Shown here: in pieces, positions 2,708 to 19,822 of the stretch
Position numbering within the stretch: the stretch's first letter is position 1
Layout: each line of letters opens with the position of its first letter
The notes under the pieces: model-generated
What the model saw: only the letters and a program-made list of their open reading frames with translations
Databases searched by the model: none
What the model was told of the DNA's origin: nothing
Position numbers and translations under genes: made by a program
Virus record (IMG/VR): IMGVR_UViG_3300042867_000579
Location: 1 to 20,940 of that record
Length of the DNA stretch: 20,940 nucleotides
DNA from: a virus
Reading direction: 5' to 3' (one strand)

Positions 2708-2767
2708 GCTTTTTCTAGTCATTTTATGGGTCACGCAATTTTTCTTTGAAATGTTAACAGAAACCCC

Positions 2768-2796
2768 TTGCGTGCACACAAATCGTGTGCTTTATA
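2768..2796 (+). promoter_or_regulatory. Early operon promoter with an operator filling its spacer
   Basis: TTGCGT (2768-2773) and TTTATA (2791-2796) are separated by exactly 17 bases. That spacer (2774-2790) is itself an inverted repeat, GCACAC-aaatc-GTGTGC. A dimeric regulator bound here would cover the promoter core. The predicted transcription start near 2803 leaves a leader of about 27 bases carrying AAGGG before the first early gene at 2830. This is the best promoter candidate for the operon. Confidence 0.55.
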
Positions 2797-2829
2797 GGTG
2801 TTACACAAACGCAACAAGGGAACCAGACC

Positions 2830-2994
2830 ATGACCAAAGCCCAACTAAGCGCATTGATGCTCGCAGCCCTAGATGCAGAATGCCGCGCAGAACGCCTAGG
2901 CGATGCTGCATCGCTCCTCAAGGCGCAAGAGGCCAGAGACGCCTACCATGCCGCCCTATGCGCCGCGCTACCTTGTAAAGCCCTTGCAGCCTAG
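2830..2994 (+). CDS. Small alanine-rich helical protein, first gene of the early operon
   Basis: 54 residues, rich in Ala, Leu and charged residues, apparently one or two helices (AQLSALMLAALDAECRAERL then SLLKAQEARDAYHAAL). I do not recognise the family. The frame is open further upstream to 2785, but the predicted promoter -10 lies at 2791-2796 and AAGGGA sits 9 bases before the ATG at 2830, so 2830 is chosen. The initiation region GGAACCAGACCATGACCA (2819-2836) is repeated exactly at the next gene (3011-3028), suggesting duplication of a leader cassette or selection for equal translation. Confidence 0.7.
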   Translation: MTKAQLSALMLAALDAECRAERLGDAASLLKAQEARDAYHAALCAALPCKALAA

Positions 2995-3021
2995 TCCAAC
3001 CCTCACAGACGGAACCAGACC

Positions 3022-3621
3022 ATGACCATCACAGCCACAATCACAGCCACAATCACAGCCGAACTATACGCTCGCGCTATCTCTTGCGCTTCTATCGACG
3101 CGCACCGCCCTCAAATTGCTGGCGTTCGTGTAGAACCGCATAAGGATGGCGGAACCATCCTAATCGCTACAGACGGTCATTGCGCCGTTGTCATCCGCGA
3201 CCTCAAAGGCTTCGCCAGTGAGGCTTTCACGCTAGCCTTGCCCAAGTCATTGCTCAAAGAATGCAAGCCATCCAGACTTGATAAAGAGCCTACTATTTGG
3301 ATCGAGGACGGCGCGGCAAAGATTACAGGCCTAATGACACGCGATTGGCTTGTCGATATGCCGTTTCCAGACTGGCGCCGCATTGTCCCGCAAACAACGC
3401 CCGATATGGGCTGCATGGCTAGCTTTGACAATCGCGTCTTGTCGCGCCTAGCAGGTGCCTTGACGGGCGATAAGGTCCAAACGCTAGTTATCAAGGGCAC
3501 AAGCGACACAGACGCTCATATCGTGTTTGGGACGCTTAGCGACGCCTTTGGCGTTGCCATGCCAATCCGCGTTGCCAATAGCATCCCCGATAACGACTTC
3601 TCACTTCCCTCTTGGCTTTAG
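3022..3621 (+). CDS. Compact DNA sliding-clamp-like protein (DnaN-related)
   Basis: 199 residues, against about 370 for a bacterial beta clamp. Three clamp signatures appear in the right order. GVRVEPHKDGGTILIATDGH (34-53) matches the domain 1 pattern ending ATDGHR. FPDWRRIVP (115-123) matches the FPDYRRVIP entry to domain 2. FGVAMPIRV (176-184) matches the C-terminal VMPMRL strand. A clamp tethers DNA polymerase to template; here it could serve the phage family A polymerase, compete with the host clamp, or act in regulation. The N-terminus is built from a 12-base repeat (MTITATITATITAE) and probably lies outside the fold. The start is supported by the shared leader with GGAA 7-10 bases upstream. 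A GC-rich hairpin follows the stop. Homology is inferred from motifs only. Confidence 0.68.
   Translation: MTITATITATITAELYARAISCASIDAHRPQIAGVRVEPHKDGGTILIATDGHCAVVIRDLKGFASEAFTLALPKSLLKECKPSRLDKEPTIWIEDGAAKITGLMTRDWLVDMPFPDWRRIVPQTTPDMGCMASFDNRVLSRLAGALTGDKVQTLVIKGTSDTDAHIVFGTLSDAFGVAMPIRVANSIPDNDFSLPSWL
3028..3060 (+). repeat. In-frame 12-bp tandem repeat at the start of the clamp-like gene
   Basis: The unit ATCACAGCCACA occurs at 3028-3039 and 3040-3051, followed by a 9-base partial copy at 3052-3060. It encodes ITAT repeats. The unit length is a multiple of three, so copy-number changes would lengthen or shorten the N-terminus without a frameshift. Confidence 0.8.
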
Positions 3622-3630
3622 GCTCTACAT

Positions 3631-3652
3631 GACGCCCGGTCCGCCGGGCGTC
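3631..3652 (+). terminator. GC-rich hairpin after the clamp-like gene
   Basis: GACGCCCGG (3631-3639) pairs perfectly with CCGGGCGTC (3644-3652) across a 4-base loop, starting 9 bases after the stop codon. The following bases (TCACTAAA) are not a T-run, so it is at best a weak or factor-dependent terminator. It may instead protect the 3' end of the upstream message. The operon seems to continue, since no promoter is evident before the next gene. Confidence 0.45.
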
Positions 3653-3699
3653 TCACTAAACCCTCAATCCAATTCAATCTCACTCAAGGATCAAATCAA

Positions 3700-3921
3700 A
3701 TGCCCACATACAATGGACACAAGAGCTGGAACCAGTGGAACGTCTCGCTCTGGATTAACAACGACGAAAGCCTGTATCGTGAAGCCCATGACCTAGTGTC
3801 GCGCTATGGCGTCGCCAAGGCCGCCAACAGGCTAGCACGCGACCTAGAGGGTCAACGCACACCCGACGGCGGCAGGTACAACCGCACGGCCATTTACAAC
3901 GCCATCGCTGACATTCTTTAG
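3700..3921 (+). CDS. Conserved small phage protein, YNGHKSWNxWNVSLW type
   Basis: 73 residues. The N-terminus YNGHKSWNQWNVSLWINNDE is aromatic- and Asn-rich, followed by a helical part (LYREAHDLVSRYGVAKAANRLARDL) and the C-terminal TPDGGRYNRTAIYNAIADI. From memory, this pattern (YNG.K.W..WNVSLW.NNDE...TPDG..Y....I..A) recurs in small early proteins of many phages and, to my knowledge, has no established function. AAGGA lies 9 bases before the ATG. It is followed by the next gene after 11 bases, whose ribosome site overlaps this gene's TAG. Conservation across unrelated phages would suggest a takeover role, but nothing in the sequence shows which. Confidence 0.78.
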   Translation: MPTYNGHKSWNQWNVSLWINNDESLYREAHDLVSRYGVAKAANRLARDLEGQRTPDGGRYNRTAIYNAIADIL

Positions 3922-4226: not shown

Positions 4227-4502
4227 ATGACCCTTAAATTATTAGATCATTGGCCTGAATTTGACCGAAACGACAATCTCACCGGGCGTCGTATAATTGG
4301 AATCAAAGCTGACCCCATAGCCGTCATTTTAAAAGGCCCACACCATGTTGAATTTCTTCACCTAGCAAAGTACGCGCCCGATATGCTCGCCGCGCTTGAA
4401 GAGGTTGACGCTTATCTTGCGCCGGAAAAAGGCGACGACGATGTGTGGCATGAATTGCGCTCTATGGTTCAAGCCGCCATCGCCAAAGCCAAAGGGGAAT
4501 AG
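4227..4502 (+). CDS. Small phage protein, second of a tandem paralogous pair
   Basis: 91 residues and paralogous to the preceding gene. Shared landmarks in order are MTL, HWPEFD, DPIAVILKGPHHVEFLHLAKYAPDM, AAL and the C-terminal AIAKAKGE. The regions between landmarks have diverged strongly, and the acidic insert APEKGDDDVW differs. The duplication is therefore old or under diversifying selection. The start is 3 bases after the upstream stop, with AAAAGG 8 bases before the ATG. The terminal codons (AAA GGG GAA) provide the ribosome site for the membrane peptide that follows. Function unknown. Confidence 0.75.
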   Translation: MTLKLLDHWPEFDRNDNLTGRRIIGIKADPIAVILKGPHHVEFLHLAKYAPDMLAALEEVDAYLAPEKGDDDVWHELRSMVQAAIAKAKGE

Positions 4503-4505
4503 ACC

Positions 4506-4625
4506 ATGACTTACACGCCACCACCCCCGCGCACCCCTTGGCTAGCCCTCGCGGCCTTTGGCCTAGTCGCTACAGGTTTCTTTGCCGGGGTATGGGCCGC
4601 GCTCGCATGGGCTTTTATCCTCTGA
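4506..4625 (+). CDS. 39-residue single-pass membrane peptide
   Basis: Short product MTYTPPPPRTPW followed by one hydrophobic segment of about 26 residues (LALAAFGLVATGFFAGVWAA and on to AWAFIL), ending at the stop. The N-terminal five residues after Thr4 are mainly prolines. AAAGGGGA at the end of the upstream gene lies about 8 bases before the ATG, and the gene starts 3 bases after the upstream stop. It probably sits in the inner membrane. Small early membrane peptides in phages can alter host envelope or exclusion functions, but no family is recognised. Confidence 0.65.
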   Translation: MTYTPPPPRTPWLALAAFGLVATGFFAGVWAALAWAFIL

Positions 4626-4639
4626 TCACAGAACCGTGA

Positions 4640-4669
4640 TTAACACTTAACAAACATTTTGGTTATAAT
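4640..4669 (+). promoter_or_regulatory. Internal early promoter
   Basis: TTAACA (4640-4645, five of six matches to the -35 consensus) and a perfect TATAAT (4664-4669) are separated by 18 bases in a short AT-rich gap. Transcription would start near 4676, just before the ribosome site of the gene at 4698. It would give the second half of the early operon, including gcrA, its own expression. Confidence 0.6.
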
Positions 4670-4697
4670 TCAAACCACGCAAACAGGAGCAAACCAA

Positions 4698-4934
4698 ATG
4701 CCAAACTACCATCTGATCGAATCCGCTGATCTTGCCAAAATGGGCATGGTCAGTGATGACGAACTGACCAAAGCGCTAGGCCAGGATCTCGCGGAACACG
4801 TTGAAGAATTAGAGGCTTTTAAAGAGGCCGCGTATGACGCACAGGCCAAGGCCCGCGTCTATCAATATCAAGTCATCCCACCGCTACACGCCGAAATTGA
4901 ACGCTTAAACGCAATCCTAAACGAAAAGGCCTAA
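4698..4934 (+). CDS. Small acidic coiled-coil protein
   Basis: 78 residues, acidic and predicted almost fully helical (DDELTKALGQDLAEHVEELE, FKEAAYDAQAKARVYQYQV, PPLHAEIERLNAILNEKA), with heptad-like spacing near the end. No family recognised. The frame extends upstream to 4659, but that start would fall on the promoter -10. The ATG at 4698 has AGGAG 8 bases upstream, so it is chosen. It is the first gene behind the internal promoter. Confidence 0.72.
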   Translation: MPNYHLIESADLAKMGMVSDDELTKALGQDLAEHVEELEAFKEAAYDAQAKARVYQYQVIPPLHAEIERLNAILNEKA

Positions 4935-4938
4935 ACCC

Positions 4939-5241
4939 ATGACCCACGCAACCATAACCACCACCTTTGACCTAGAACTAGAATGCGAGATCGACGGCGA
5001 CTATTGGCGCCATGAGGATGAATCGGTGCAGGATCTCACCCTGTGCTTTATGTACGCCTACGAACCGCGCCCCAGCACCGCACGGTTTGATCTGCTTCAA
5101 GGCCTTGATAGGCCCTCGCGCCTGATCATTCAGCGCAACCTATTCAAAATAGCCGGTATGTCCGAACGCATAATCAAAGACATCGAAGCCCTAGGCGAAG
5201 ATCTGCACATTGAACCCGACGCTTACGTGAAGGAGTATTGA
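4939..5241 (+). CDS. Hypothetical acidic phage protein
   Basis: 100 residues, acidic, mixed strand and helix. The N-terminal part (ATITTTFDLELECEIDGDYW) looks like strands. The central CFMYAYEPRPSTARFDLLQG leads into a helical segment (PSRLIIQRNLFKIAGMSERIIKDIEALGEDL). I do not recognise it. AAAAGG about 10 bases before the ATG comes from the end of the upstream gene. The end of this gene (GTG AAG GAG TAT TGA) supplies AAGGAG for the next gene. Confidence 0.72.
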   Translation: MTHATITTTFDLELECEIDGDYWRHEDESVQDLTLCFMYAYEPRPSTARFDLLQGLDRPSRLIIQRNLFKIAGMSERIIKDIEALGEDLHIEPDAYVKEY

Positions 5242-5244
5242 GCC

Positions 5245-5586
5245 ATGACCGACGATAGCTTGACTAACGCAGACCTTCAGCGCCTTGCAGCGCAAGCGGC
5301 ACGAAAAGCCCTGTCAGATGAGGTTGACCGCCACTTGATTGCATCCATGCAAGCGCGGCAAAACGCCGCCTATATGACCGACCAAGCCCAAACCAACCGC
5401 GCCATTGAGGCATATGAGGAAGCCCGAATGACTCACCGCCCCAAGCCCAAGTTTATCCTTCACATTGACGGCAACCACTTCCACGCCAACAGGCGACGCG
5501 CCACCCTATGGGACGTCCTATTCGTGGCCATCGCGACCGCAACATGGCTCGCCCTGCTAGCCTCAATTTATCTGGTGTTCAAATGA
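5245..5586 (+). CDS. Tail-anchored small membrane protein
   Basis: 113 residues. The first 60 are helical and charged with many Ala and Gln (ADLQRLAAQAARKALSDEVD, MQARQNAAYMTDQAQTNRAI). A His/Asn-rich stretch (FILHIDGNHFHANRRR) follows, then one C-terminal membrane segment (LWDVLFVAIATATWLALLAS to VFK). The arrangement suggests a cytoplasmic helical domain anchored by its tail, with RRR at the cytoplasmic border. Unknown function. AAGGAG 9 bases upstream of the ATG. The stop overlaps the next start in ATGA. Confidence 0.72.
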   Translation: MTDDSLTNADLQRLAAQAARKALSDEVDRHLIASMQARQNAAYMTDQAQTNRAIEAYEEARMTHRPKPKFILHIDGNHFHANRRRATLWDVLFVAIATATWLALLASIYLVFK

Positions 5587-5726
5587 GCGAGCACCTAGTC
5601 ACGTTGCGCCATCCCAGCCGGTGCCGGTGCAGCGCATGGCTTCCAGCCGGATCGACAGCCAAGCTATCCCCTTTCAGCAAGACACCCTACGACTGCGTAG
5701 CGTGCCGACCGAGGCCTAAGTCATGA
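5583..5726 (+). CDS. 47-residue Cys-rich mini-protein, possible zinc knuckle
   Basis: The ATG overlaps the upstream stop (ATGA at 5583-5586), and the stop overlaps the next start (ATGA at 5723-5726), so a coupled gene fills the gap exactly. The product is MSEHLVTLRHPSRCRCSAWL and on, with paired cysteines CRC (C14, C16) and CVAC (C38, C41) and a basic tail RPRPKS. Two Cys pairs 21 residues apart could bind one zinc ion. Longer frames starting upstream at 5508 would overlap the membrane protein and lack support. Function unknown; an RNA- or DNA-binding role is only a guess. Confidence 0.58.
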   Translation: MSEHLVTLRHPSRCRCSAWLPAGSTAKLSPFSKTPYDCVACRPRPKS

Positions 5727-6082
5727 GCTGCCCCCATTGCGTCCACCTCATGCACGAGAACAAGCGGCTGGTCGGTGTCATCAAAAGGCTCAAGGCCAGG
5801 TCGCTACAGTCCACGCCTATTACGCCCTTGTCGTTAGGCTTCACAGGCCAACAGGAAACCATCATAGAGGCCCTGTGGGCCGCGCAGGGGGCTGGCGTGA
5901 CCTCTGCCCTGCTATCCTTCGCCCTTGGCGGTGAATCGTCCAAAGCCAGCGTAAGGGTCCAAATCAACCGGATCCGCGCCAAGCTAGGACCGAACACTAT
6001 CAAGAACCGTTACGGAACGGGATACTATTTCACGCCCGAAGGCTTGGGCGTTCTGTCAGAAATTATGGGAAAAACAAAATGA
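5723..6082 (+). CDS. Winged-helix DNA-binding protein, PhoB/OmpR effector-domain type
   Basis: 119 residues. The N-terminus MSCPHC (C3, C6) followed by a basic helix (HLMHENKRLVGVIKRLK) may bind zinc or form a coiled coil. Residues 36-107 match the winged-helix domain of OmpR/PhoB regulators: an L-x-F-T-x-x-Q start helix, a recognition helix SKASVRVQINRIRAKLG (73-89), then IKNRYGTGYYFTPEG (93-107), the wing hairpin usually written RGxGYxL. No receiver domain is present, so it would not be controlled by phosphorylation. It probably regulates phage or host transcription. Coupled by ATGA overlaps at both ends. The fold call is from pattern only. Confidence 0.68.
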   Translation: MSCPHCVHLMHENKRLVGVIKRLKARSLQSTPITPLSLGFTGQQETIIEALWAAQGAGVTSALLSFALGGESSKASVRVQINRIRAKLGPNTIKNRYGTGYYFTPEGLGVLSEIMGKTK

Positions 6083-7434: not shown

Positions 7435-7595
7435 CCGACCAACAAGACTGGGACGCCGCCGCAGCAGAGGCCGGGTATTTGCCGACAAGTGAGTATGTCA
7501 AACGATGGGCGATGGCCCGCGAGGCAGCCCGCGAGGCTCTACAGACGGCGCAAAGCCTACACCCCTCTTTAAGACAGCCCAAGGAAGAACAATGA
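7431..7595 (+). CDS. 54-residue helical protein with RQPKEEQ tail, coupled to gcrA
   Basis: Reads MTDQQDWDAAAAEAGYLPTS, then a charged amphipathic helix (EYVKRWAMAREAAREALQTA) and SLHPSLRQPKEEQ. ATG at 7431 overlaps the upstream stop as ATGA, and its own stop (7593-7595) overlaps the gcrA start as ATGA. AREAAREALQ plus PKE resembles the ends of the genes at 6771 and 6983, so it is another member of the shared-tail set. Function unknown. It probably exists partly to deliver ribosomes to gcrA. Confidence 0.66.
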   Translation: MTDQQDWDAAAAEAGYLPTSEYVKRWAMAREAAREALQTAQSLHPSLRQPKEEQ

Positions 7596-8197
7596 GCGAT
7601 AAACCGCCCGTTTACGCATGGCCGCAGGAGGCTATCGACAACATGATCAGGCTCTACCTCAAAGGCGACAGCGCCAGCCAGATCGCCAAAGCCCTAGGCA
7701 ATGGCCTGACGCGCAACGCTGTTATTGGCAAGCTAAACCGCCTAAGAGACAAGGGGCTGCGCCCTGAGTTGAGCCTGCACGTCATTTCGGTTAAGAGGGC
7801 TAACGGCCAACAGATCAACCGCATCAATGCGGCCAAACTGGCGACGCCATACCGGCCCAAGCCGCAACCGGCCAAGGTCGTCCTGTTCAAGGCCCCGACC
7901 ATGCCCAAGCCAACGCCACCACCGCCGCCAGCAGCCGCGCCAGAGCCGACAGGCATACACGCGGCTATCCTTGCAAACCTCCGCCCACGGGGCTGCAAAT
8001 GGATCGTGGAGGACTTCCTGATCGGCCAGGGCGACGAGGCGCTCATGTGCGGCGAACTACGCTCCGGCGAATCGCCCTACTGCGAGCATCACCGCCGGAT
8101 TGGCAAAACCTCGTGGCCTGATCGAAAGGTCGAGGCCAGCAACCGAGGCTTGAGACGCCTAGGCGCATGGGCCACCAAGAACGTCTATGGATCATGA
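7592..8197 (+). CDS. gcrA: GcrA-family cell-cycle transcription regulator, phage-encoded
   Basis: 201 residues. In Caulobacter and relatives GcrA binds the sigma70 RNA polymerase holoenzyme and promoters carrying GANTC methylated by CcrM. Residues 9-55 match the GcrA N-terminal helix-turn-helix: AW (9-10), LYLKGDSASQIAKALG (21-36), then LTRNAVIGKLNRLR (39-52), very close to the family signature SASQIAxxLG-VTRNAVIGKxxRL. A Pro-rich linker (about 88-119, with PTPPPPPAAAPEP) leads to a C-terminal module GCKWIVEDF...LMCGE...SPYCEHHRRIGK (C135, C153, C164, H166, H167), like the conserved GcrA C-terminus that contacts sigma. It is last in the operon, coupled by ATGA, and followed by a strong terminator. 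The longer frame from 7505 overlaps the upstream gene and is not preferred. Both DNA-binding and sigma-binding halves appear intact, so it may redirect or mimic host GcrA. Confidence 0.88.
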   Translation: MSDKPPVYAWPQEAIDNMIRLYLKGDSASQIAKALGNGLTRNAVIGKLNRLRDKGLRPELSLHVISVKRANGQQINRINAAKLATPYRPKPQPAKVVLFKAPTMPKPTPPPPPAAAPEPTGIHAAILANLRPRGCKWIVEDFLIGQGDEALMCGELRSGESPYCEHHRRIGKTSWPDRKVEASNRGLRRLGAWATKNVYGS

Positions 8198-8235
8198 AAA
8201 AGCCCCCGCCGGAAACATCCAGCGGGGGCTTCTTC
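8196..8235. terminator. Bidirectional intrinsic terminator between convergent operons
   Basis: AAGCCCCCGC (8200-8209) pairs perfectly with GCGGGGGCTT (8222-8231). The flanks GAAAA (8196-8200 side) and TTCTTC continue the pairing with one mismatch. The plus strand ends in TTCTTCT and the minus strand in TTTTTC, so it can stop the early operon after gcrA and the replication operon from the other side. Confidence 0.85.
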
Positions 8236-8262: not shown

Positions 8263-10608
8263 TTAGCGCAGCTTCGCGGTGAAGTCTACAACATTGTCGT
8301 CGTTTCCGCCTTCATTCTCCACCATCCGCCGCAGATCGCTTTTGCTGTTCTTGCGGGCAACCTCCGGCGCGGCCCAGATGTTTTTCTTGGTGCTGTAGTC
8401 GGTCGAGCTAACCCGCCCTAGGTCTTTCCACCCCGCCTCCTTCAAGGCGTGTAGCAAGGCGTTAGCGTGGAACTTGGCCGTGTCAGGCAGTTGGCCCTTG
8501 AGCAGATCGCCATAGGCTTGGAAGGGCGAACCAACCACGCCTCTGGCGAACTCGCCCTTGCGGGCGCGGATCAGCGCCACCAACGCGCTCTCGGTCGCAC
8601 TCATGCTGTTCTCGATCATGCTGCGCTTATAGTCGGTCTCGGCTGGCGCTTGGTGCGGCGCGAAAGCGGACACGTCGCGCTGATGCAGCCAGGTTGCGAT
8701 GGCCTCGAAACCGCCCGACTGGTACCACGAGTGCATAGCATCCGACTCTGCCTTGGGCATACGCCCCACGGACGACCAGACGCAGAACCAGCGGCGGTCT
8801 TGCGAGGGCAGGCTGATCGGTATGGCGAAGTTGGTAAACGCCAGCACAAGCACGCGGTTGACCATCTGGTAGGGGTGCAAGCCCTTGCGGTTGATCGTCA
8901 GGGTCTCCGGCGGCGCGGCGATGATGGGCTTGAGTTGGTTAGCCAAGGCGCGGCGCTGGGCTGCTTCGTTCTCCTGAAGTTCGTTGATGACCATCAACTC
9001 GACTTCCATGTCGTAGCCCCACGCAGACTGGAGGCCCTTGTTATCGACGATGGAGCGGTTGCGGTGGTTCGGTCCCGACAAGGCCCAGATGAAGGGTGCC
9101 CACATCGTGTCTTTGCCGCTGCCCTCGTCGCTGCCGTGCAGGATTGCGTGGTTGATCTTCTTGTTAGGGTTCTGGATTTTGTAGGCCATCACGTCGAGGC
9201 AATGGTTTAGCTCTTCAGGGTCGGGTATCAGCCACTCGCAGTGGTCAAGCCACCGCTTCACAGCGCTGTCTGACACGGGCACCGACAGGTCTAGCTGCGG
9301 CCTGCCGTTGATCCAACGGTTGCCGAAGACCTCGCCATCACGCGCCAGCAGCAGGCCATCGCCAGGTGCGTAGGTGACGCCCGACAGGACTTGGGCACCC
9401 ATCTGCTCGCGGTTCTCGTCGAAGCAGATTGACGCCTCGACCTTGCGGCCTGTGTGGACCGAGATGCAAGGGACGTGGCGGAACAGGGCGTTGAAGTTGG
9501 ACCGGCTCAGTTCGCGCCGGTTCGCCAGTTCGAAGTAGGTATCGTCCGACAGGATGTAGGCGAAATTCTTGTACCAGTCCGCCTTTTGAAGGCGGCTGAT
9601 CTGTTTGTGTTCGACCTCAAGCTGACGTGCCTTAGCCTCGTTCGGGTAGGTGTCGTTAGGCTCCAGCTTCTCTAGGGTCTTGTTGTGGATCTCGGCTAGC
9701 AGTTCCTCACGCAAGCCCTGCGTGACCTGCGGCCCGCCGTTGTCATGCACCCACTGCAAGAACTCCTTGCTGCCTAGCATCTGACAGTGGCCGTGGTAGC
9801 AGCAGAAGGATCGGTCTAGGGGTTTATACCTAGCCTCTGGGTTGCCATCCGAATGGCTGGCCTCGTTAGGGCAGACGATACCCATCCAGCCCTCGGCGTT
9901 GACGCCAGACAGGACCATGTTGTGGTCGTTCATCCAATCAACGACACTATCCTTGCCTGTGTCGCGCAGCTTGATCGACCGCAACTGAGCAGTGTCCGGC
10001 GCGGCTGGCTCGATCCCGTGAGCCTCAAGGAAGCCCTTCAACGTAATGCCTGTGTTGGGGTGCCACTCGACGATACGCGCCGCGAAGTTGTCGCGGCCCT
10101 TCTTGAGGTTGACTGAGCCAGGAATGCGGCAGTTGCGCACCGCGTTGGTTGCGCCCGGGTCGGTATAGCCTGCGTCGGCGATGGCCTTGATGGCTGCGGT
10201 GAACTCCGCCTTGCTGGGCTGCTCCTCGAAGACGTAGCCCCACTGGAACGAGCCGGGCGACGTCTCCATGATCCATGTCGGCTTGACCAGCGGCGTTTTG
10301 GACTTGGTGCCAATGTCGTCTAGCATCATGAACAGGACGTACTCGACGTTCTCAGCTTTGGCTGCTGGCCTGCCATTTTCGAAGCGGTCGAGGATGAACG
10401 AGCCTGTGTTGACGTACCACGCCTGCCCCGGCTTGATCGTGGCCGTGGCGGGGATGAACGACGGAAAGGTAGCCTTGGGCGCACCATCTGCATGATACTG
10501 GCGCTCGCCATCCTTCAGGCTTAACTTTTGGCGAACCACAAGCGCGGTCTCGCCCTGCTCGGCTAGCGCCGAGATGTATTCAACAAATTGTATGTGGTCG
10601 ATGCTCAT
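8263..10608 (-). CDS. Bifunctional primase-helicase (AEP/RepB-like primase plus SF3 helicase)
   Basis: 781 residues, last gene of the replication operon. The N-terminal part resembles archaeo-eukaryotic/RepB-type primases: MMLDDIGTK with D97 and D98 as metal ligands, ETSPGSFQWGYVF (115-127), and NAVRNCRIPGSVNLKKG (155-171). A putative zinc knuckle follows (C246, H252, C269, C270, H272, C275). The C-terminal part is a superfamily 3/DUF5906 helicase: Walker A HGSDEGSGKDT (491-501, K499), Walker B ELMVINE (537-543), sensor Asn in AFTN (593) and arginine fingers in SQDRRWFCV (R605, R606). It would synthesise primers and unwind DNA for the phage polymerase. GGGAG 9 bases before the ATG; 12 bases after the polymerase stop. 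Domain calls come from motifs. Confidence 0.9.
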   Translation of the reverse strand: MSIDHIQFVEYISALAEQGETALVVRQKLSLKDGERQYHADGAPKATFPSFIPATATIKPGQAWYVNTGSFILDRFENGRPAAKAENVEYVLFMMLDDIGTKSKTPLVKPTWIMETSPGSFQWGYVFEEQPSKAEFTAAIKAIADAGYTDPGATNAVRNCRIPGSVNLKKGRDNFAARIVEWHPNTGITLKGFLEAHGIEPAAPDTAQLRSIKLRDTGKDSVVDWMNDHNMVLSGVNAEGWMGIVCPNEASHSDGNPEARYKPLDRSFCCYHGHCQMLGSKEFLQWVHDNGGPQVTQGLREELLAEIHNKTLEKLEPNDTYPNEAKARQLEVEHKQISRLQKADWYKNFAYILSDDTYFELANRRELSRSNFNALFRHVPCISVHTGRKVEASICFDENREQMGAQVLSGVTYAPGDGLLLARDGEVFGNRWINGRPQLDLSVPVSDSAVKRWLDHCEWLIPDPEELNHCLDVMAYKIQNPNKKINHAILHGSDEGSGKDTMWAPFIWALSGPNHRNRSIVDNKGLQSAWGYDMEVELMVINELQENEAAQRRALANQLKPIIAAPPETLTINRKGLHPYQMVNRVLVLAFTNFAIPISLPSQDRRWFCVWSSVGRMPKAESDAMHSWYQSGGFEAIATWLHQRDVSAFAPHQAPAETDYKRSMIENSMSATESALVALIRARKGEFARGVVGSPFQAYGDLLKGQLPDTAKFHANALLHALKEAGWKDLGRVSSTDYSTKKNIWAAPEVARKNSKSDLRRMVENEGGNDDNVVDFTAKLR

Positions 10609-16348: not shown

Positions 16349-16642
16349 CTAGCGCGGCCACGACTTCACGGTCAGCCTGTGGCGCGTGGCACAGTCTTCA
16401 TAGGCACTCAGCACGCCGACCTCCCACTCTAGGCGAGCGGGGTCAATGGCTGGTTGCGGCGGGAGCGGCAGACTTGGGCACGGCGAGGCTAGGTTCGCCG
16501 GTAGCGACATTGGCGTCACGGACACCGTTGACGAGCAGGCCGTACATAGGGTCAGGCAGAGCGCACTCAGCAGGAACAGCGGGAGCGTCGCGGTAAAACT
16601 CCTTGATGGTGTTGGTACGCTGGACATTGACACTGGAAACAC
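16349..16642 (-). CDS. Rz1: Outer-membrane spanin Rz1, overlapping Rz in another frame
   Basis: About 97 residues. A lipoprotein signal (SFTATLPLFLLSALCLTLCTAC) is followed by a short mature part with a Pro-rich segment (CPSLPLPPQPAIDP) and a C-terminal helix (LEWEVGVLSAYEDCATRHRL), the pattern of Rz1-type o-spanins that join the i-spanin to break the outer membrane. The predicted lipidated Cys is C36 in LCTAC; Cys at -3 is not the usual residue. Start chosen: GTG at 16642-16640, with AGAGGAG 7 bases upstream. ATG at 16660 and 16627 are alternatives. It starts inside Rz and runs 94 bases past its end, the classic overlapped spanin arrangement. Confidence 0.8.
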   Translation of the reverse strand: MFPVSMSSVPTPSRSFTATLPLFLLSALCLTLCTACSSTVSVTPMSLPANLASPCPSLPLPPQPAIDPARLEWEVGVLSAYEDCATRHRLTVKSWPR

Positions 16643-16835
16643 GCCTGCGCTCCTCTTCATATTGCGCTGATATAACGTCGATCTTGCCTTGCATGACCAC
16701 ACGCCGCTCTTCTGCGGCCTTGTAGGCTTTGGCCGCAGCAGACTTGGCCGCGCCGTCTCGGATGGCGTAGCCGGTAACACCGCCGCTGACAATCAAGCCG
16801 ACGAACACAGCGATGGTGATAATCGGATTGTTCAT
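16443..16835 (-). CDS. Rz: Inner-membrane spanin Rz
   Basis: 130 residues. One N-terminal membrane segment (PIITIAVFVGLIVSGGVTGY, residues 4-23), then a long charged helix (KSAAAKAYKAAEERRVVMQG, residues 31-50, continuing ISAQYEEERRRVSS) forming the periplasmic coiled coil, then ECALPDPMYGLLVNGVRDAN, a motif common in Rz proteins, and a Pro/Ala tail. Rz spans the periplasm with Rz1 and disrupts the outer membrane in the last lysis step. The start overlaps the holin stop (ATGA at 16832-16835). The Rz1 frame begins inside this gene. Confidence 0.83.
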   Translation of the reverse strand: MNNPIITIAVFVGLIVSGGVTGYAIRDGAAKSAAAKAYKAAEERRVVMQGKIDVISAQYEEERRRVSSVNVQRTNTIKEFYRDAPAVPAECALPDPMYGLLVNGVRDANVATGEPSLAVPKSAAPAATSH

Positions 16836-16993
16836 GGGCGAACCGGCCCATCAGGAATGAAGGCGGCGATTGCCCCAACAGCCATAGAGACGTAGGACCA
16901 CGGCGCGACCAAGGCAGACGCGGCTGCGACGCTTGTGCCGATCAGCAGCCAGGTCGAGCGTTCACTAAGGCGGGCTTTGATGAAGCTAAGCAT
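16832..16993 (-). CDS. Small two-helix holin
   Basis: 53 residues: MLSFIKARLSERSTW, then two hydrophobic segments (LLIGTSVAAASALVA, residues 16-30, and YVSMAVGAIAAFI, 34-46) separated by a short PWS turn, and the tail PDGPVRP. This matches class II-type phage holins and sits between endolysin and spanins. The holin would open the inner membrane and release the endolysin, which has no signal peptide. The frame is open further upstream, but the ATG at 16993 is 8 bases inside the endolysin end, the usual spacing here, so it is chosen. No family-specific motif. Confidence 0.75.
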   Translation of the reverse strand: MLSFIKARLSERSTWLLIGTSVAAASALVAPWSYVSMAVGAIAAFIPDGPVRP

Positions 16994-17387
16994 TTTTTGG
17001 CGGGTCCGGATAGGTGGCTGACGGAAGCTGGATGTGCGGCGCGTCCTTGAAGGTCTTCCAATCGTAGCCGAACTCAGCTTTGACGCCGACATCCTTAGCG
17101 GCCTGCTTGAAGGCCACGATCAGCCGATCATACAAAGGCCAATCCCAACGGATTGAGCCTGCCACGAGCGGCGCTACGTCCACGGCGAAGCCATGCAGGT
17201 GCCGAGACTTCATGGTCTTGGACGCGCCTGACGCGAATAGCTCCTGCTGGCGCTTGATGGTGCGCAGGCCCTCAATGACCGTGAAGTCTAGCGGCGAGAT
17301 CTCAAGCGCTCGCATGACGACCTTGACCAGATCGGGATGGACGCCGGTTAGGTTGAGGCTTGAGCGTTGGCTAAGATGGAAGGTCAT
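16986..17387 (-). CDS. Endolysin, M15 peptidase (VanY/L-Ala-D-Glu endopeptidase type)
   Basis: 133 residues, a single catalytic domain. The M15 signature is clear: VIEGLRTIKRQQELFASGAS (37-56), SRHLHGFAVDVAP (61-73) with zinc ligands H63 and D70, and a C-terminal WKTFKDAPHIQLP (110-122) with D115 as probable catalytic residue and H118 as third ligand. This is the layout of T5-type endolysins that cut peptide stems of peptidoglycan. No signal peptide, so release depends on the holin. Its ATG overlaps the stop of the upstream membrane protein (TGATG), and its end overlaps the holin start. Confidence 0.92.
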   Translation of the reverse strand: MTFHLSQRSSLNLTGVHPDLVKVVMRALEISPLDFTVIEGLRTIKRQQELFASGASKTMKSRHLHGFAVDVAPLVAGSIRWDWPLYDRLIVAFKQAAKDVGVKAEFGYDWKTFKDAPHIQLPSATYPDPPKNA

Positions 17388-17554
17388 CAGTTCATCTTCA
17401 GTACGATGCCGAGAAGAAGCATGATGATGGTCCCGGCGATAACTACGCCGATCCCTTCAATGCGCTTCAACCTGGCGCAAATGCCGTCGTAGCGCAGAGC
17501 GCATACTGCTTCGTGCGTGTCCAACCTAGCACCTGGATCTTTCTCTTCGGCCAT
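17387..17554 (-). CDS. Small membrane protein, XhlA-like, first gene of the lysis cassette
   Basis: 55 residues: a charged N-terminal helix (MAEEKDPGARLDTHEAVCAL, then RYDGICARLKRIEG) and one C-terminal membrane segment (IGVVIAGTIIMLLLGIVLKM). A cytoplasmic helix with HExVC..RY..I..RLKRIE followed by a tail anchor resembles XhlA-type proteins found with holins and endolysins. It may assist or tune hole formation. It is too short to be placed in a family with certainty. Its stop overlaps the endolysin start by one base, and it starts 9 bases after the preceding virion gene. The ribosome site is weak (GTGAG). Confidence 0.72.
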   Translation of the reverse strand: MAEEKDPGARLDTHEAVCALRYDGICARLKRIEGIGVVIAGTIIMLLLGIVLKMN

Positions 17555-17563
17555 AAAACGTAC

Positions 17564-19822
17564 TCACTGTACTAATGCGTTGGTGGGGGCCTTGGCGGGT
17601 GCCAAAGCATTGACGGTAACGGCGGCGGGTGCCGACCAAAATGCGGGGTTAGCTAAGGCAATAGCGGCTTGGCGGCGTTGCGCGGTAGGAACCCGCACCA
17701 ACAGTTGAGCTAAATTTTGTCCAGACTTAAAGCTCGTGACAAGTTGGGCTTCGACTTCGGGTGAGACGCGAAGGTCTTTAACGGCTGATGCTAACCGTGC
17801 TGCTGCTGCCAGTCTGGGCTGCATCGCTTGACCGATGAAAGATTTAACTGTGTCAGGAATGGTGCGGTCTTTCTTGAGCAGTTCAAGCGCTGCGGGGGCA
17901 CCTGTTGCGGCCAGTTCGCCAGCGCGGGTGTCAAGCTCCAATTCTCCCGCAACTTTTTGCAAACCCGTGAGCCGTGACGGCCCCATCTGAGCACCCATCT
18001 CCTTAACGATGTCGTAGCTGCCTGGGCCAAAGACCGCTTCGATGGCGTCGGGATTGTCCCCGCGCACCAGTTTGACAAAATCGTTTGGAGACTCATCAAG
18101 CATCTGCATCAATTTTGCCGACAGTTGGCGGCGCTCGATGTCCCTCATACCAGTAAAGTAGGCGTTTTTGTAATCAAGCCAACCTTCGCCGCCTGCTTTT
18201 TTAATAGCATCATCAATTAAAGGGTTGATTTTGGTCATGACAGCGGCTGCGGCCTTGCGCTTGGACGACGGGTCAGAGCCAGCCATAAGCCGGTCTATGG
18301 TATCGCTGACAGTATTTTTTTGGATGCTATATAATGCTTCAGCATCAATAATGCCGCCGTTCTTTGATGCCCATTCGCTGACGTCGGACAAAACCGCACG
18401 AACGCTTTGGTTGACCTTATCGTTTCCTGCGTATTGCGGGTCGTTCTGCACGCGCACTAGGCGCGACGTCAGCGCGTTGGTGTCTAGTGGGTTAAGACCT
18501 GCTTCGGATATGTTCGCCGCGATCTGGTTGGCGTCACGCGCAGCCTTGCCCGCAACCAAGCTCTCAGCGGCGGATCGTTCGGACTGATCTTTGGCGACCT
18601 GCTCCAGCCTGATCATTGGGCCGGTCACGCGAGGCATCCCCGGCACAGGCTTGAAGTTCTGACCTTGGACGCGGGCGGCGGGGGCAAGACGCTCCATGCG
18701 CCGCACAGTCTCAACATCTGTCGCTGCTTGGCCTTCAAATTGACGCGCTTGCGCTTGAAGGTTTGGAATGTACTTGCCGCCGATGTTGGCGGTGTCCAGC
18801 GCCTCTTGGCGCATGGGGCTAGTCAGCGCGTTCAGGTTGGCCTTGGCGACGTCCTGCGCCATCAACGCTTCGGTCTGGGTTGCTCCGCCCGCCTGCGCGG
18901 CCAGCACGTTGGTGCGGGCCTGCGCCTGCTGCTCAAGAATTGGCACATAGGCAAGCAGTCCTTTGGGACCTTGCTCGATGGCCGACGCCAAACCCACAAC
19001 GATCTGCGGGTTTTCGACGCCCATCGTCCGCAGTTGAGCCTGCACGGCATCCTGCGCTAGAAACTGCTTGGCCGTCATGCCTTCAGGGGCACTATTCAGC
19101 AGCGCAATGACGTCGGGCGCGTTGGGGCCAAGGGCTTTTTTAACCGCAGCCGCAGCAATGTCGGAACCCGTCTTGCTAAAGAAGTCGACCGCGCCGACAA
19201 CGGCTTTACCGAACGGTACACCTACGATGGGCAGCACAGCCCCTATGGTAGCCCCCGCGTTCGGATCTTGCCCTGCAACCGCAGACGTAACTGCGCCGGT
19301 AGTCGCGCCCGTGCCACCACGAACGAGCGCATTGACGACTTCGCCGCCTGCCGAGGTTGGCTTCATACCTGTACGGAAGCCGCCGGTCTCCAAGCCTGCG
19401 GCGACCGGCGCAGCGTAACGTGCAACGGCGGGCACGGCTTTGGCTAGCGCTTTGACGGGCGCAGCTAAAGCGCCACCGACAGGAATTAGAGGTAAAGTCT
19501 CGCCTGCAAACTCACCCACCTTCCCGCCAAGGAACCGGCCGCCTGTGCGCTCGTAAGCGGCCCTATTACGGGCTGCGGCTTCGCGTGCGCCGGAAATGCC
19601 CATAGCTTCCGTCGCGGCGATTATAGCGGGGTCGGTAAACTTAGATGCGCCCGCGATAAGGCCCGTCACAGGCGACATCAGCGACTGACCCCAATCGGCT
19701 AGCGAAGGCCCGCGTGGGCCAGGGATGCCGCTGGGTGGTGCCTTGGGTTTAGCATCAAATTTATCAAAGGGGTTTCCGCCTGCGGCGGGAGCGGAATCAA
19801 ATTGGTCAAACGGATTTGCCAT
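17564..19822 (-). CDS. Large virion protein, probable DNA-ejection (internal virion) protein
   Basis: 752 residues. It begins with two copies of a PFD(Q/K)FD motif (NPFDQFDSAPAAGG and NPFDKFDAKPKAPP), followed by Gly/Ala-rich hydrophobic stretches between about residues 100 and 215 that could insert into membranes. The rest is long helices (ANLNALTSPMRQEALDTANI, LEQVAKDQSERSAAESLVAG, RLAAAARLASAVKDLRVSPE). This composition and the position just before the lysis cassette fit ejection proteins of podophages. No lytic transglycosylase motif was seen. It starts directly after the upstream stop (TAAATG), with GGGG 7 bases before. The assignment is by composition and context; a tail or other structural role is possible. 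Confidence 0.6.
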   Translation of the reverse strand: MANPFDQFDSAPAAGGNPFDKFDAKPKAPPSGIPGPRGPSLADWGQSLMSPVTGLIAGASKFTDPAIIAATEAMGISGAREAAARNRAAYERTGGRFLGGKVGEFAGETLPLIPVGGALAAPVKALAKAVPAVARYAAPVAAGLETGGFRTGMKPTSAGGEVVNALVRGGTGATTGAVTSAVAGQDPNAGATIGAVLPIVGVPFGKAVVGAVDFFSKTGSDIAAAAVKKALGPNAPDVIALLNSAPEGMTAKQFLAQDAVQAQLRTMGVENPQIVVGLASAIEQGPKGLLAYVPILEQQAQARTNVLAAQAGGATQTEALMAQDVAKANLNALTSPMRQEALDTANIGGKYIPNLQAQARQFEGQAATDVETVRRMERLAPAARVQGQNFKPVPGMPRVTGPMIRLEQVAKDQSERSAAESLVAGKAARDANQIAANISEAGLNPLDTNALTSRLVRVQNDPQYAGNDKVNQSVRAVLSDVSEWASKNGGIIDAEALYSIQKNTVSDTIDRLMAGSDPSSKRKAAAAVMTKINPLIDDAIKKAGGEGWLDYKNAYFTGMRDIERRQLSAKLMQMLDESPNDFVKLVRGDNPDAIEAVFGPGSYDIVKEMGAQMGPSRLTGLQKVAGELELDTRAGELAATGAPAALELLKKDRTIPDTVKSFIGQAMQPRLAAAARLASAVKDLRVSPEVEAQLVTSFKSGQNLAQLLVRVPTAQRRQAAIALANPAFWSAPAAVTVNALAPAKAPTNALVQ

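Follow-up and report, generated by a model that had tools for sequence, protein, structure and literature searches.

The presence of a gcrA gene in a phage genome raises the question of whose promoters a phage copy of this cell-cycle sigma cofactor would serve, and whether both of its halves still do their work. The window, that is the whole stretch of DNA analysed, is a 20,940-base virus record from IMG/VR, and its genes flanking gcrA are podovirus-like (terminase, RepB-like primase, family A DNA polymerase, SNF2 helicase and endolysin). Host GcrA is an activator of m6A-marked promoters that binds domain 2 of sigma70 (PMC7403470), and a phage-encoded homologue, gp222 of phiCbK, was described in 2012, when its authors proposed that it pushes the host into replication (PMC3556154). 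Phage-borne GcrA has been in the published record since phiCbK and is already known; what is new is the clade described here, in which the C-terminal sigma-interacting domain (SID) has diverged while under purifying selection and gcrA is linked to a winged-helix gene and to a conserved promoter. Such genes have been annotated since 2012, but the literature searched yielded no functional test of a GcrA encoded by a phage. From its sequence, the phage probably steers host transcription with a GcrA variant.

The gene, identified by ORF call, Pfam, phmmer and AlphaFold2, lies at 7592-8197 on the plus strand and encodes 201 residues. The original prediction had placed the product in the GcrA family from the sequence alone, and the assignment is secure: PF07750 GcrA is the sole Pfam family found (E 2.9e-19, 70.4 bits against a cut-off of 26.9), with residues 9-173 aligned to positions 2-146 of the 155 in the profile, an alignment that spans both modules. 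A phmmer search of the PDB recovers Caulobacter GcrA 7ye1 (E 1e-11) together with its two crystallised halves, 5yiu and 5yix. The sequence contains every feature named in that prediction: SASQIAKALG, LTRNAVIGK, a linker rich in Pro, and Cys/His residues in the C-terminal part. With Caulobacter crescentus GcrA (PF07750; 7ye1, 7ye2, 5yiu-5yix) the protein shares the two modules, the signature of the DNA-binding domain (DBD), the Cys/His frame and the linker, but it carries an N in place of H41 of the KVHRL motif, an extra C-terminal helix and a much altered SID, and its score against NF050816, the NCBIfam equivalog of Caulobacter-type GcrA, lies far below the cut-off (67.5 bits against 280). 'KLNRL' was discarded as a phage signature, being a search artefact, since the searches had themselves used NAVIGKLN as a pattern.

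The DBD (7616-7771, plus strand; approximately residues 9-60, from alignment and model) is joined by a Pro-rich linker (approximately 61-128), disordered in the AlphaFold2 model, to a C-terminal module (7976-8194, plus strand) made up of a Cys/His SID-like domain (approximately 129-173) and the added helix (approximately 177-197). Taking as conserved those positions shared by at least 80% of the 57 host-genome GcrA rows in the alignment, the DBD retains 19 of 27, including TRNAVIGK, SASQIA and W, and the SID 8 of 16; the other rows of the clade keep 7 or 8 SID positions, against a median of 16/16 in host rows. Retained, in Caulobacter numbering, are C118, W120, C133, G134, P141, Y142, C143 and H146, which preserve the frame CKW...CG...YC..H; changed across the clade are P121, G123, P125, F130, F132, G140, A150 and Y151, and the host motif WPIGDP...FxFCG...AYQP is absent. 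The original prediction held that both functional halves were kept and took loss of sigma-contacting residues as evidence against it; the DBD bears the claim out, whereas the SID, with 8 of its 16 host-conserved positions changed clade-wide, comes close to such a loss. Docking of the SID on sigma70 through the known interface is, from these residues, uncertain.

Structure prediction, proposed earlier as a check in complex with sigma70 domain 2, gave for the protein alone an N-terminal domain of three helices, well predicted (pLDDT about 83-88), and a C-terminal module of moderate quality that includes the added helix at 177-197. In a Foldseek search of this model, Caulobacter GcrA entries take ranks 1-5, with modest E-values of 0.003 to 1.6; the DBD matches 5yiv (target TM 0.90, rmsd 0.9) and the SID matches 5yix_B, a GcrA SID in complex with domain 2 of sigma70 (target TM 0.70, probability 0.97). 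Both halves resemble the Caulobacter structures, the SID at moderate confidence only, as its model leans on homologues in its alignment.

The divergence of the SID is the mirror image of that in phiCbK gp222, which retains 14/16 SID and 12/27 DBD positions. Although alike in being phage-encoded members of the family, gp222 and the other Dolichocephalovirinae homologues (PMC3556154) come from a different setting, phiCbK being a giant siphophage and the window clade having a podovirus-type genome of about 40 kb, and the two do not group in the tree. By alignment, the half of GcrA that was rewritten in one phage lineage is the one better kept in the other. The clade, with its DBD kept and its SID rewritten, is a compact natural experiment, and comparison with phiCbK would reveal which of the two halves is required by a phage, and whether the CcrM mark serves phages as an address for redirecting host polymerase.

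Between relatives, dN/dS (Nei-Gojobori; small samples) is 0.04-0.25 for the whole of gcrA and 0 to 0.17 for the SID, with the C-terminal half lowest in most pairs; in the SID of L003 and L004 there are 0 nonsynonymous and 8 synonymous changes. Because purifying selection is strongest there, the rewritten C-terminal half is most likely functional, and the SID looks re-tuned, not decayed.

The same protein was found in six more IMG/VR contigs (L002, 96% identity; L003, L004 and L005, 65-68%; L203, 64%; L204, 70%, partial), and no GcrA match was found in 40 IMG/VR terminase-relative contigs (approximately 80% identity, many of them fragments) or in two annotated genomes, all searched whole. Across these records gcrA is the marker of a small phage clade. 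The gcrA-bearing contigs have in common an early cassette (the genes at 4939 and 5245, the winged-helix gene at 5723, and gcrA), while their replication genes differ, and the window terminase has no match in the L003 stretches searched. Given this shared cassette and the differing replication genes, gcrA is taken to travel from one phage backbone to another as part of an early cassette that faces the host. The lysis genes of the window (16349-17587) are 71-97% identical to those of the gcrA phages L002 and L003 and, like the early cassette, were not found in the terminase-relative stretches searched; the two may possibly be host-facing modules that travel together. It could be argued from the sporadic distribution, and from the 40 terminase relatives that do without the gene, that gcrA is a recently captured or decaying passenger with no role. 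This is scarcely credible, however, since the gene is under strong purifying selection, which by itself largely refutes the idea, is kept in several contigs with different backbones, and has no close host copy. Among 385 alphaproteobacterial genomes the best homologue reaches 39% identity (61.9 bits), and as no close homologue was found there or in the genome contigs searched, recent capture from a host was rejected.

A phylogeny of phage against host GcrA, a further check proposed at the outset, yielded a tree but no single phage clade: there are four label changes, with many long branches and weak forks. GcrA homologues are also present in Agrobacterium phage Atu_ph08 (PMC6630229), Sinorhizobium phiLM21-like prophages (PMC12429752) and Rhizobium phage RHph_X2_24; these resemble the window in placing GcrA in an alphaproteobacterial phage or prophage, but no close sequence relation to the window protein was found. 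When the phage collection was searched by tblastn, the window protein matched only Brevundimonas phages, over the DBD and the start of the linker at 32-33%, and Caulobacter GcrA matched 32 phage records, many annotated as GcrA. The nearest annotated genome, that of uncultured Podoviridae sp. ctNMl277 (MW202483), shares the backbone (terminase 78.5% and DNA polymerase 59% identical) but lacks gcrA and the winged-helix cassette, whose place in the early region is taken by a 5-cytosine methyltransferase and a DnaA-like HTH. Other architectures were also observed. L008 encodes at 9998-10249 a short DBD-only GcrA-like protein (PF07750, 47.8 bits) without the Cys/His half; this contig is a relative that shares its SNF2, nuclease and PDDEXK genes with the window and is nearly free of GANTC (3 sites against 24.8 expected). 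By eye, the GcrA-like proteins of L007 (9983-10621), L009 (10001-10402) and L186 (988-1695) appear to have two tandem HTH units, with the Cys/His module also retained in L007 and L186.

In the window gcrA is the final rightward early gene, followed by a hairpin and then by the convergent primase gene, as the original prediction had it in placing the gene last in an early operon. That operon had also been described as fully coupled. This applies to its last genes, which are joined through 4-base ATGA overlaps (the gcrA ATG overlaps the TGA of the preceding gene), but not to the whole, as there are gaps at 2994-3022, 3621-3700, 4502-4698 and 5586-5723, the third of which houses a conserved internal promoter. 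The terminator-like hairpin 3' of gcrA (8200-8231, no strand assigned) has a perfect 10-bp stem, AAGCCCCCGC/GCGGGGGCTT, and was identified from the sequence, its 12-nt loop exceeding the loop limit of the terminator scanner; it is retained in L002. Further upstream, the product of 3022-3621 weakly matches the DNA polymerase III beta clamp (TIGR00663, E 3e-5) and also a phage processivity-factor family; despite a best PHROG labelled RusA-like, it is likely to be a small phage sliding clamp.

The early control region (2753-2832, plus strand), directly upstream of the first gene, contains a perfect palindrome, GCACAC-AAATC-GTGTGC with an N5 spacer (2774-2790), between TTGCGT and TTTATA, within the probable promoter spacer, and it is likely to be the operator of an early repressor. 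The predicted internal promoter (4622-4694, plus strand) consists of the palindrome TGATCAC-N6-GTGATTA followed by TTAACA-18-TATAAT. It is found in the window, L002, L003, L004, L005 and L203, ahead of different genes, with the palindrome arms conserved and the core variable; the palindrome looks like a repressor-type operator. L033, a record with no gcrA match, has a copy with two mismatches. Matches to the palindrome outside the clade, in L195, L197 and L198, were dismissed as chance, their flanks being unlike the phage promoter and two resembling coding DNA.

Downstream of this promoter, two small genes (4939-5241 and 5245-5586, plus strand) co-occur with gcrA and with the gene at 5723-6082 (plus strand), which encodes a stand-alone winged-helix protein of the OmpR/PhoB C-terminal type, its Pfam match falling just below the cut-off. 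This is the best-conserved early gene of the clade, with 80-92% identity among those gcrA-bearing phages whose contigs cover the region, and it was not found in the terminase relatives searched. Its only annotated phage relatives, at 27%, are in Caulobacter phages GB2A, RW, RLK and KcrB, a weak hint of a Caulobacterales host. The co-conservation of this gene raises the possibility that the C-terminal module of GcrA has been repurposed for another partner, such as another sigma factor, another polymerase surface or a phage protein, for example the winged-helix product, with methylated GANTC sites serving as landing places for the new activity. The clade-wide loss of WPIGDP, FxFCG and AY within a preserved Cys/His frame, the added helix and the very low dN/dS of the C-terminal half would all fit such a change of partner. 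The modelled SID, however, superposes on the sigma-bound GcrA SID, albeit in a homologue-assisted model of moderate confidence, and repurposing is considered unlikely, if worth serious attention. Somewhat less likely still is the bolder form, in which the phage would have split and re-engineered the cofactor, keeping the methyl-GANTC reader and rebuilding the polymerase half to suit a partner or geometry peculiar to the phage, possibly together with the winged-helix protein. If true, this would make it an epigenetically addressed transcription hijacker.

The distribution of GANTC bears on which promoters the protein would address. The window has 21 sites, against 73.6 in dinucleotide shuffles, a comparison that overstates the depletion, as codon-preserving shuffles give 39.4 (sd 4.7; 0/300 as low); seven control motifs show no comparable depletion in the codon-preserving shuffles. 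GANTC is absent from the intergenic DNA of the window and, as had been claimed earlier, from 2066-2829. In alphaproteobacterial genomes GANTC is normally under-represented at least 2-fold and enriched in intergenic DNA (PMC3973325). Most gcrA-less terminase relatives are undepleted (Markov ratio near 1), with a G+C-rich subset depleted. Because depletion is a general alphaproteobacterial trait and is seen in some relatives without gcrA, it mainly indicates the host, and is read as suggesting that the hosts of the gcrA clade are alphaproteobacteria with CcrM, whereas those of the wider phage family are of several kinds. The earlier statement that the window lacks a methyltransferase agrees with the absence of any PF01555 (CcrM-type) match from the window, and from all 21 records searched, four gcrA-bearing relatives included, and on this ground a CcrM-type enzyme of the phage's own was rejected.

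A map of GANTC at the phage promoters, called for with the original prediction, shows no conserved position across the relatives compared, including near the internal promoter; in L002 alone, a GAGTC lies immediately behind the -10 element of the early promoter. Since these positions are not conserved, phage promoters are unlikely to be conserved GcrA targets. Wu et al. in 2018 reportedly placed GcrA sites on either side of the start site, and the L002 GAGTC, together with the position of gcrA as the closing gene of the early operon and an internal promoter conserved among gcrA-bearing phages, could indicate that GcrA works as an early-to-middle switch, activating phage promoters through GANTC or without regard to methylation. 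With intergenic DNA free of GANTC, none conserved near the internal promoter, and a palindrome there that looks like a repressor operator and recurs in L033, such a switch is decidedly improbable. Methylation-independent action on 2066-2829, as first suggested, found no positive support and was retained only as part of the switch reading: the global shortage of GANTC fits host-promoter targets better, and the L002 homologue has the GAGTC.

The same absence of intergenic GANTC would let the phage spare its own genes if GcrA were a competitor, sitting on methyl-GANTC promoters without productive sigma contact, shutting down host GcrA-dependent genes and stopping the host cell cycle. A conserved DBD beside changed sigma-half motifs is what such a dominant negative might look like. 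It would have no need, however, of a strictly conserved C-terminal half, which is the most constrained part of the protein, and DBD-only proteins such as that of L008 fit the role better; a competitor is accordingly held to be improbable.

Given that GANTC is absent from the intergenic DNA of the window and that none is conserved at phage promoters, the targets would lie in the host. The simplest reading, by analogy with host GcrA (PMC7403470) and with the phiCbK proposal (PMC3556154), is host-like action on host promoters, and about an even chance is given to phage GcrA being a sigma70-RNAP cofactor that acts mainly on CcrM-methylated host promoters. Most likely, the N-terminal domain reads m6A-GANTC sites as host GcrA does, and the re-tuned Cys/His module still docks on host RNA polymerase; the docking site would be domain 2 of sigma70, though affinity or geometry may have changed. 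Expressed from the early operon, the protein would bias host polymerase towards CcrM-methylated promoters of S-phase, replication and division genes, which would favour phage DNA synthesis; alternatively, it may replace host GcrA in cells or stages where that protein is low. Counted for this cofactor role are the PF07750 and PDB matches, the model superposition, the retention of the DBD, the low dN/dS, the retention in six mosaic contigs, the early cassette with its second DNA-binding protein, and the GANTC depletion. Counted against it are the clade-wide loss of half of the host-conserved SID positions, the lack of a near host homologue in the 385 genomes, and the fact that GANTC depletion is a general alphaproteobacterial trait.

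Among the other phage contigs, L010, L011, L080, L088 and L090 have GANTC far below expectation (Markov ratio 0.07-0.29), a stronger depletion than is typical, possibly due to restriction by GANTC-cutting enzymes or to strong CcrM-related avoidance.
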